Positions 56,186 through 59,746 of a stretch of 64,000 nucleotides of DNA are shown one piece after another. This DNA is from Halostella litorea (GTDB taxonomy: Archaea; Halobacteriota; Halobacteria; Halobacteriales; Natronoarchaeaceae), in NCBI RefSeq assembly GCF_004785955.1, contig NZ_ML214300.1:547223-611222 (forward strand), given 5' to 3'. Numbering within the stretch: position 1 is the first letter of the stretch; the number at the start of each line of letters is the position of its first letter. The notes beneath the pieces are model-generated. The model saw only the letters and a program-made list of their open reading frames with translations. It was not told the origin of the DNA and did not search any database. The translations under genes and the position numbers were made by a program.

Positions 56186-56680
56186 TCAGCCCGCCTCGAC
56201 CGTCGCCTCGTCGCCGTCGACGACCAGTTCGAGGTGGTCGGTCTTCGGGCGCTGTGACTGGCAGGCGGTCGTGTACGCGAGCCGGTAGCGGCCGTCGCCG
56301 GGGACCGTCGCCCGCCCCTCGCACAGTTCGAACCCGGTCCCCTGGTAGACGATGTCGTCGAGGAACGTCTTCCGTTTGCCCGTCCCGCCGTCCCCGCCCT
56401 CGAACGCCGTCAGCGATAGCTGGCCGTCCGCGGGCGTGGCGTCCAGCGACCACCCCTCCGGGGCGAACGCGACGTAGCCGTCCTCGGCGAAGTCCCGGCC
56501 CACGTTGGCGACGAACAGTTCGACGTCGAGGCTCGCGCCCCGCCCCGTCCGGGTCACGTCCGAGACCTCGGCGTCGACGATCAGCGACGGACGCTGGATC
56601 CAGAACTTGTACACCGTGATCGACGTGGCGACCACGGCTGCGATCGGGACGACCCATCCCGAGAGTAGCGGCGGAACCAT
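56186..56680 (-). CDS. Membrane-anchored protein of unknown function
   Basis: 164 residues. One N-terminal helix (WVVPIAAVVATSITVYKFWI), then a beta-rich domain (VDAEVSDVTRTGRGASLDVE; YVAFAPEGWSLDATPADG) with an acidic C-terminus. Its stop abuts the convergent 55937 gene. No family recognised with confidence. Confidence 0.7.
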   Translation of the reverse strand: MVPPLLSGWVVPIAAVVATSITVYKFWIQRPSLIVDAEVSDVTRTGRGASLDVELFVANVGRDFAEDGYVAFAPEGWSLDATPADGQLSLTAFEGGDGGTGKRKTFLDDIVYQGTGFELCEGRATVPGDGRYRLAYTTACQSQRPKTDHLELVVDGDEATVEAG

Positions 56681-57691: not shown

Positions 57692-59635
57692 TCAGTCTGC
57701 GCTGCCGGACTGCCGCGGCGCGTCCGCGTCGGCCGCCGGCGTCGCCAGCACGGTCCGGACGTCGGGCGCGAGGCGGTTGACCACCGCGCGCCCGTCGCGC
57801 TCGCGGGCGACCAGCCCGTCCTCGTCGAGCCGCTTCAGGTGGTGGGTCACCGTGCTCGGGTCGCGGTCGAGTTCGTCGGCCAGCGTCGACACCGTCGCGG
57901 GGCCGGTCCGCGCGAGCGCCTCCAGCACGGTCGCGGCGGCGTCGTCAGCCATCGCGGCGGCGAGTTCCCGGTCGTCGGCCCCCGCCGGGAAGTACCGCCG
58001 CCGCCCCCGGTGTTTGATGCTCGTCACCAGCCCCTCCGCCTCCAGCACGCGGAGGTGGTGCCGGGCCGTCGACAGCGGCACGCCCGCGCGGTCGCACACC
58101 GCCGACAGGTGGGTGCCCGGCGCGGTGGCGATGGCGTCGTGGAGGGCGGCCCGCGCGTCGTGGTCCAGGGGCTCGGCGTCGTCGAGTCGGCTGTACAGCC
58201 CCGCCATCCCGCGGAGCGCGACCTCCTGGTACGCCCCGGGTGTCGTCGTGGCCGGCGTGGCGGCCGTCGAAAGGTGGACCACCGCGCCGTGGCCGTGCCG
58301 CGCCGCCGCGCCGACGGCGACGGCACCCGCGCCCAGCCCGGCGGGCGACGGGCCGGTCGGCCCCTCCGGGGCGGGCGTGCTCGTCGGCTCGGCGGGGAAC
58401 GTCGTTTCGTCCGTTTCGGACGGCGCGTCCGTTCCGTTCGCGTCCTCGGTCCGATTCGCCTCCTCGGTCCGGTTCGCGTCGTCCGGTTCGTCGTCCCCGG
58501 CCCCGTCGTCGGCCGACCCGTCGTCCGTCACCCTGTCGGGTCCGCCCGCGCCGGTATCCGGGCCGTCGTCCGCGCCGTTCCCGCCGGGTGCCGACGGTGC
58601 GGTCGATGGCGGTTCCGCCGTCGTCCCGTCACTGGGCGCGTCGGGCGCGCCCGCGTCGCCCGACTCGTTCCCGTCCGTGTCTTTTCCGTGCGTGGCGTTG
58701 CGCTCCGCCGGGACGGTTTCCGCGGGCGGTGCGCTCCCGTTTGCCGGGCGGTCAGCGTCGCCGGGACCGGATTCGACGTCCTCGGGCGGTCCCGCGTCGT
58801 CGGGCGCGTCGGCGTGCTCGGGCGGGCCCGGGTCAGCCGACGGCGGTCCGGTGTCGTCGGACTCGTCGCCGCGCTCGGGCGGGCCGGCGTTCTCCGGCCC
58901 GTTCGCCCCGTCCGGCGGTCCGGCGTCCGCCGGGGCGGGCGTCTCCTCCGGCGGCCCACCGGCCTCCGGCGCGGTCGTATCGTTCGCTGCGTCGGTCCCG
59001 GACGACGGGGCGGACCTCTCGCCCGGACCCGCGTCGTCGGGGGCGTTGGCCTGCTCGGGCGGTCCCGCATCGGCCGAGGGCGGCCCCGCGTCGGAACCGG
59101 ACGCGGCAGCCTCCGGCGGGCGTTCGGCGTCGCCGCCGTCAGTCGTGTTCTGCCGGCCTGTGGCCCGGTCGGCCGCGTCGGCCGAGTTCCCCGGGGAATC
59201 GGCCTGCTCGCCCGCACCACCGGCGGCGGCGCTCGCGCCCGTCCCCGCTTCCGTCCGCGTTCCAGCGTTGCCCCGCGTTTCGCCGTCGTTCGGCCTATCG
59301 CCGCCGCTGCCCGGTCCCCGCCGGTCGGCGCTCGCCTGCTCGGGCGGTCCGCCGTCGCCGGTTCCGGTCGCGTTCCCCGGCCCGGCGTCGTCGGATGGCC
59401 CGGCGTCACCGGTACCCGTGTCCTCGGGCGGGCCGGTATCGCCGTTGCCCCTGTCGTCCGGCGGTCCCCGGTCGTCGGGTGGTCCGCCCCCGGCTTCGGG
59501 CGGCCCCGCGTCGTCGGGCGGATCCGTCGCTCCCGCCTGTGCCGCGGCTACGCCGGGCGCGAGACAGGTCAGGACGACGACCAGCGCGACGGCGAGTCGG
59601 GCGGCCGCCGCGGTCGTCGAACGGGCGTCGCTCAC
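57692..59635 (-). CDS. Signal-like leader, long Gly/Pro/Asp repeat and two winged-helix domains
   Basis: 647 residues. After a leader with AAAARLAVALVVVLTCLAPG and VAAAQAGA comes a region of about 390 residues of low-complexity repeats built from DAGPPE/DDAGPPEQA-like units (about 35-425). A weakly hydrophobic segment follows (about 425-445), then two wHTH domains: LSAVCDRAGVPLSTARHHLR (about 510-541) and VSTLADELDRDPSTVTHHLK (about 580-608), as in haloarchaeal membrane-bound regulators. GTG at 59633-59635 is the likely start. If the leader is cleaved, the DNA-binding part would be outside the cell, so it is probably an anchor. Confidence 0.78.
   Translation of the reverse strand: MSDARSTTAAAARLAVALVVVLTCLAPGVAAAQAGATDPPDDAGPPEAGGGPPDDRGPPDDRGNGDTGPPEDTGTGDAGPSDDAGPGNATGTGDGGPPEQASADRRGPGSGGDRPNDGETRGNAGTRTEAGTGASAAAGGAGEQADSPGNSADAADRATGRQNTTDGGDAERPPEAAASGSDAGPPSADAGPPEQANAPDDAGPGERSAPSSGTDAANDTTAPEAGGPPEETPAPADAGPPDGANGPENAGPPERGDESDDTGPPSADPGPPEHADAPDDAGPPEDVESGPGDADRPANGSAPPAETVPAERNATHGKDTDGNESGDAGAPDAPSDGTTAEPPSTAPSAPGGNGADDGPDTGAGGPDRVTDDGSADDGAGDDEPDDANRTEEANRTEDANGTDAPSETDETTFPAEPTSTPAPEGPTGPSPAGLGAGAVAVGAAARHGHGAVVHLSTAATPATTTPGAYQEVALRGMAGLYSRLDDAEPLDHDARAALHDAIATAPGTHLSAVCDRAGVPLSTARHHLRVLEAEGLVTSIKHRGRRRYFPAGADDRELAAAMADDAAATVLEALARTGPATVSTLADELDRDPSTVTHHLKRLDEDGLVARERDGRAVVNRLAPDVRTVLATPAADADAPRQSGSAD
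58375..59550. repeat. Low-complexity Gly/Pro/Asp coding repeat
   Basis: Degenerate GC-rich units such as GGCGGTCC and CCGTCGTCGGG recur for about 1.2 kb within the gene at 57692-59635. They keep long open frames on both strands (for example plus-strand frames at 57777-59642 and 57839-59689), which are artefacts of composition. Confidence 0.85.
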
Positions 59636-59746
59636 GGTGTAAGGGCTATTGTCGCGCGGCAAATGTGTTATGGTGAACCGAACGAATAGCCGCGACTCCG
59701 CCCGCCGACCGCCGGGCGGACGCGGCGGCAGGGGACGATCCGCGAC

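Follow-up and report, generated by a model that had tools for sequence, protein, structure and literature searches.

The open reading frame 59635..57692 on the minus strand of the window (the whole stretch of 64,000 nucleotides of Halostella litorea DNA analysed here) has no internal stop on inspection and represents an intact single gene, as the initial annotation had read it. The parts of this gene are listed in Table 1. Translation probably begins at the GTG at 59635: the AT-rich element CACCATAACACATTTG lies 24 nt upstream of it, and the alternative start, a TTG at 59662, is located within this element, the position of which suggests a leaderless transcript. Comparison of the upstream footprints yields only TATA-like and clade-specific blocks and no operator common to the family. 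Two long antisense ORFs overlie the stalk-coding region (57777-59642, plus strand, 621 aa, and 57839-59689, plus strand, 616 aa); they are attributable to the high-GC repeat composition and do not indicate genes. Residues 644-647 of the window protein are GSAD, and AD or ADD forms the C-terminal end in most members of the family. Elsewhere in the window, the product of the minus-strand gene at 56186-56680 is a small protein without a Pfam match, predicted to be a membrane protein from the hydrophobic helix at its N-terminus; the gene adjoins a BrkB-type gene, and this pairing is kept in two congeneric relatives.

Table 1. Predicted parts of the regulator gene and of its upstream region (window coordinates; dG_app values are to be read by comparison only)
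Feature	Coordinates	Strand	Basis and remarks
Whole gene: signal helix, disordered stalk, weak membrane segment, tandem winged helices	57692..59635	-	GTG start, 647 aa
AT-rich promoter-like element CACCATAACACATTTG	59660..59675	-	24 nt upstream of GTG; kept in loci L038 and L039 of the same genus (judged by eye)
Sec-type signal peptide, residues 1-32, AxA end	59540..59635	-	Hydrophobic core dG_app -0.94
Disordered acidic stalk, residues ~33-429, DAGPPE-like units, nine N-x-S/T sequons, predicted extracellular	58349..59539	-	Composition, sequon shuffles
Second membrane segment (weak), residues ~430-448, SPAGLGAGAVAVGAAARHG	58292..58348	-	Position conserved; dG_app 3.77
Juxtamembrane motif YSRLDDAEPL	58166..58195	-	Family consensus YSRYDDSDPL; Y, S, D, P, L invariant in two alignments
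Winged helix 1, HVO_0163_N type	57962..58159	-	PF24266, E 9e-14 in full protein
Winged helix 2, ArsR type	57761..57952	-	NF033788, E 3e-21; nearest solved fold CzrA

By sequence comparison, the presence of two winged helices, described initially as two ArsR/MarR-like domains, is certain. The first matches HTH_HVO_0163_N (PF24266) with 51.7 bits against a curated cut-off of 31, and this profile also identifies the domain in all 20 family members scanned. Matches to HTH_20, HTH_5 and HTH_metalloreg have E values of 1e-14 to 3e-21, and the ArsR winged helix NF033788 scores 75 bits against a cut-off of 55. AlphaFold models both domains with pLDDT >90. A fold search started with winged helix 2 retrieves CzrA (Z 12.9, 92 residues aligned, rmsd 3.5) along with other ArsR proteins; the same search with both winged helices together gives no useful match. 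Recognition-helix residues are kept in both domains (SxxRHHL and DPSTVxHHL, with HHL in each), so that DNA binding is likely, and the dN/dS of 0.22-0.28 for this part of the protein within the genus indicates purifying selection.

A search of 392 Halobacteriales genomes with the winged-helix profile (E <= 1e-30) reveals a patchy and widespread family, with matches in 110 genomes, a count that includes a few weak matches to soluble relatives; 80 regions were retrieved. Selection for a signal helix followed by a linker leaves 63 long members, spread over seven GTDB families of Halobacteriales (f1, f3, f4, f6, f7, f12, f17), all with the same order of parts; their linkers range from 132 to 1267 residues, with a median of 227. 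For L122, a long member, the predicted stalk has about 1270 residues. One genome (G335, of family f4, genus g29; loci L113, L133, L134 and L135) contains five family matches, among which L133 diverges strongly and shows no second membrane segment in a dG_app scan. A search of genome contigs for related loci returned a single match, bacterial and irrelevant.

The stretch that separates the N-terminal helix from the winged helices was described in the initial annotation as a Gly/Pro/Asp repeat of roughly 390 residues. It is about 400 residues long and disordered, with DAGPPE-like units and a composition rich in G (18%), A (17%), P (16%) and D (15%); Lys accounts for 0.2%, large hydrophobic residues are nearly absent and GPP occurs 13 times. 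The repeat is irregular, and TRF gives only short, degenerate arrays of 12-39 nt. The unit varies by species, e.g., DAGPPE in the window, SPPGQSGETPA in L038, NETTDDTEDAV in L048 and DSDPSDPSDTSDSPD in L053/L026. Even within the genus the stalks (395, 423 and 313 residues) are mutually unlike, whereas the winged helices are 73-77% identical. Since the order of parts is kept across the family and the winged helices are conserved while the stalks differ, the joined layout is old and maintained, and the stalk sequence is not.

The feature of the stalk that had been missed is its enrichment in sequons. In the window stalk, 9 of the 17 Asn residues lie within N-x-S/T sequons compared with 2.1 expected by shuffling; none of 2000 shuffles reaches nine, and the reverse motif does not occur. 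The stalks of the 63 long members together contain 473 sequons against 178.7 expected, with the reverse motif at chance (175), so that about 70% of stalk Asn (473/680) are in sequons; the winged-helix halves of the same proteins contain 24 sequons among 189 Asn. Sequons exceed expectation in 62 of the 63 stalks, with p <0.05 in 51, counts that are not independent given that the members are related, though their repeat units differ. The enrichment is seen separately in GTDB families f1, f4 and f7 and is small in f6 (10 vs 7.1 expected) and f17 (16 vs 11.9). Because N-glycosylation in haloarchaea takes place outside the cell (PMC8241124), this pattern suggests that the stalk is most likely extracellular.

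The predicted topology depends on two hydrophobic segments. The first of these, at residues ~1-32, is a signal helix of the Sec-like kind (LAVALVVVLTCLAPGVAAA) with a dG_app of about -0.9, which agrees with the signal-like leader noted before; no lipobox is seen at the signal peptide of the window protein, and the equivalent N-terminal segment has dG_app <=0.92 in all 63 long members retained. The helix is preceded by Arg and followed by acidic residues, which predicts that the N-terminus is inside and the stalk outside. The second segment, Gly/Ala-rich and weakly hydrophobic, lies between the stalk and the winged helices and has a median dG_app of 1.63 among the long members, compared with minima of mostly 4-6 within the winged-helix parts and 1.5-2.2 for weak helices in the multi-pass, BrkB-type neighbour. 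That of the window protein is among the weakest (3.77, with 3.16 and 2.60 in relatives of its clade). The scale was built for the ER translocon and was checked here against the BrkB-type protein alone, so that only comparisons count. In the 15 residues on each side of this segment, the mean charge is -2.1 before and +3.0 after it, and the C-terminal flank is the more positive one in 62 of the 63 long members, in accord with the positive-inside rule. Such flank charges are, at the level of sequence, a stop-transfer pattern that predicts a C-terminus inside. AlphaFold gives no confident helix at this position in the window protein, for which the alignment is shallow; for a relative with a stronger segment, the winged helices are confident and the membrane segment is unresolved. 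The second segment of the window protein is the weakest link and the main uncertainty of the membrane model. A conserved juxtamembrane motif, YSRxDDxxPL, lies between it and the winged helices. The initial annotation saw the C-terminal winged helices and missed both this motif and the second segment. The dilemma it posed, that the leader is either an anchor or is cleaved and leaves the winged helices outside, arose from missing the second segment and dissolves: a cleaved signal peptide is compatible with cytoplasmic winged helices because the second segment is predicted to cross back.

A group of shorter relatives departs from this layout. Among 17 short members, 15 belong to one weakly supported clade together with two long members; they have a signal helix, a linker of 35-107 residues without sequons, and no second segment. 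Relatives of this branch (L056, L123, L124, L131, L136-L141, L143, L145 and L146; about 220-330 aa) contain tandem winged helices which, if the layout is taken literally, would be outside the cell, and several possess a short hydrophobic patch, APPLWAVLLRYSR, immediately before the juxtamembrane motif. The topology of the short branch is not explained by a model with the stalk outside and the winged helices inside.

Analysis of the genomic contexts identifies several recurrent neighbours. Gas-vesicle (gvp) genes adjoin the regulator in 25 of 81 loci (22 in f7 and 3 in f6), e.g., GvpO, GvpA and GvpF/L genes with a CHY zinc-finger gene in L046, L051, L052, L054, L042-L044 and others. A role as a gas-vesicle regulator was rejected and the adjacency is read as synteny, because no match to gas-vesicle genes is found in the window genome or its genus and many f7 genomes have gvp genes without the regulator family. 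The mutS gene is divergent to the regulator in 23 loci, all confined to f7, and this link is likewise read as synteny.

These observations are best compatible with a one-component transmembrane transcription regulator, with the stalk outside and the tandem winged helices inside, a reading that we consider probable. A DNA-binding domain and predicted membrane segments, the second of them weak, are present in one chain, as expected of an archaeal one-component membrane regulator. The initial annotation listed an anchored membrane sensor, with the repeat outside and the DNA-binding part inside, among its options, and the sequons and the positive-inside flanks (62/63) make it the best supported one. 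The signal peptide would take the N-terminus through Sec, with cleavage probable; were it uncleaved, the second segment would still bring the chain back to the cytoplasm. The stalk of about 400 residues would then be disordered and N-glycosylated in the cell-wall zone, the short Gly/Ala-rich segment would cross back, and the tandem winged helices would bind DNA at the inner face of the membrane. The sequences themselves show how the parts are arranged, the excess of sequons, the asymmetric charges and the purifying selection on the DNA-binding part; we infer the membrane crossing, glycosylation and DNA binding, and also that a change in the stalk, caused by the state of the envelope or by a cut by an external protease, may alter DNA binding or release the winged helices. 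As the stalk has no fold, binding of a small ligand by it is unlikely; its role could be to report crowding, salt or the state of the envelope, or to be a switch that proteases cut. Far more tentatively, these proteins might form a class of archaeal envelope sensors with nothing but a disordered, hypervariable, N-glycosylated stalk as ectodomain, and with tandem winged helices that are freed or switched by cutting of the stalk or by its mechanical or osmotic perturbation. If true, this would be a direct switch from surface to chromosome without a folded ligand-binding domain. Few routes by which signals pass from the glycoprotein cell wall to promoters have been characterised in haloarchaea, and an outside part that is foldless and changes its repeat unit between species raises the question whether a disordered glycosylated stalk can sense.

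The most substantial competing possibility, which we nevertheless regard as unlikely, is that secreted or membrane proteases cut the glycosylated stalk, intramembrane cleavage of the second segment follows, and the winged helices are thereby set free to reach the chromosome in a Notch- or SREBP-like manner, the ancestral target being adjoining secreted subtilase genes. Tat-type secreted S8 subtilases are indeed encoded within 8.5 kb of the regulator in 11 loci (L040-L044, L050, L089, L092, L107, L114 and L129) from four GTDB families (f17, f6, f4, f7), some of them divergent to it with a gap of about 40 bp, and the order dcd - S8 - regulator is frequent at these loci. The Gly/Ala-rich, marginal character of the second segment would suit intramembrane cleavage; haloarchaea carry rhomboid, S2P and SPP-type intramembrane proteases (PMC9263693), and regulators of halolysin genes have not been identified (PMC6085418). 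The family is a candidate for such regulators of secreted proteases in some haloarchaea. Against this, the window locus has the order dcd - regulator with no protease neighbour, a search for S8 in the window genome (one query, no positive control) gives no match, and most family members have other neighbours. Moreover, the shared gene order is compatible with either an ancestral link or plain synteny, given that dcd and acnA are likewise retained. Because these proteases are missing from the window, a role as a protease regulator is retained as an alternative only.

Acidic, Lys-poor stretches are common among haloarchaeal cytoplasmic proteins, and the second segment is weak in the window clade. 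Both facts would fit a cytoplasmic protein in which the N-terminal helix is a mere membrane tag, with the N-terminus outside, and the repeat serves inside the cell as a tether that is adapted to salt or undergoes phase separation (a phase-separating or salt-sensing tether in the cytoplasm was one option of the initial annotation); the high share of stalk Asn in sequons, with the reverse motif at chance, and the charges around the N-terminal helix do not support such a tether and leave it quite improbable. Still less credible is a surface stalk with a degenerate DNA-binding tail that is exported or non-functional: some short-branch relatives do have a signal helix without the second segment, and yet the winged helices evolve under purifying selection, retain HHL in both recognition helices and contain few sequons. 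A frameshift or misassembly joining two genes, named initially as a possible refutation together with winged helices always encoded separately, has a negligible probability: the fused layout recurs in all 63 long members, which come from seven GTDB families, and this rules out both conditions, and coding selection on the junction side was tested.

The preferred reading of the window protein as a transmembrane regulator has precedents. In Haloferax volcanii, HVO_1944 and HVO_0306 are each described as a 'probable transmembrane glycoprotein/HTH domain protein'; HVO_1944, with a Sec (SPI) signal, yields an AglB-dependent N-glycopeptide, and HVO_0306 is reported to be O-glycosylated (PMC8241124). 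Compared by description only, they resemble the window protein as membrane proteins with a Sec (SPI) signal and an HTH domain (PMC8241124); in the latter, glycosylation is predicted from the sequence, with nine stalk sequons against the 2.1 expected. The window genome itself encodes four DUF7343 (PF24034) proteins with a signal helix, a sequon-bearing ectodomain, a second membrane segment and a winged helix. Haloarchaeal membrane proteins of the DUF7345-DUF7343 type and others with DUF7343 (PF24036, PF24034) share with the window protein the signal helix, the sequon-bearing ectodomain, the membrane segment with a basic inner flank and the C-terminal winged helix. They differ in the folded DUF7345 ectodomain of three of the four and, in all four, in a membrane segment that is stronger, an acidic linker on the cytoplasmic side and only one winged helix, of the DUF7343 type; these features are all absent from the window protein. 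The latter has no Pfam match to DUF7345 (the three matches in the genome fall in other genes) and is absent from the DUF7343 matches of its own genome, and DUF7343 matches weakly in 6 of 20 family members (best E 1.6e-6). Soluble tandem winged-helix regulators of the HVO_0163 type (PF24266), including relatives of about 200 aa in the window genome (L002), share winged helix 1 and have no signal peptide, stalk or membrane segment. ArnR and ArnR1 of Sulfolobus are likewise archaeal membrane-bound one-component winged-helix regulators, with an N-terminal HTH, a middle sensing domain and two C-terminal membrane helices and without a signal peptide or glycosylated stalk (PMC6396743); ArnR is a distant functional analogue with the inverted order of parts. 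In the open-access literature (subscription papers lay outside the search), no paper on the family combining a stalk with tandem winged helices was found. The initial statement that no protein of this exact layout had been described therefore holds in part: the general kind, glycosylated transmembrane HTH proteins, is already known from H. volcanii (PMC8241124), with four similar proteins in the window genome, whereas the version with a disordered stalk appears to be undescribed, and what is new is the combination of a hypervariable disordered ectodomain with tandem HVO_0163-type winged helices.
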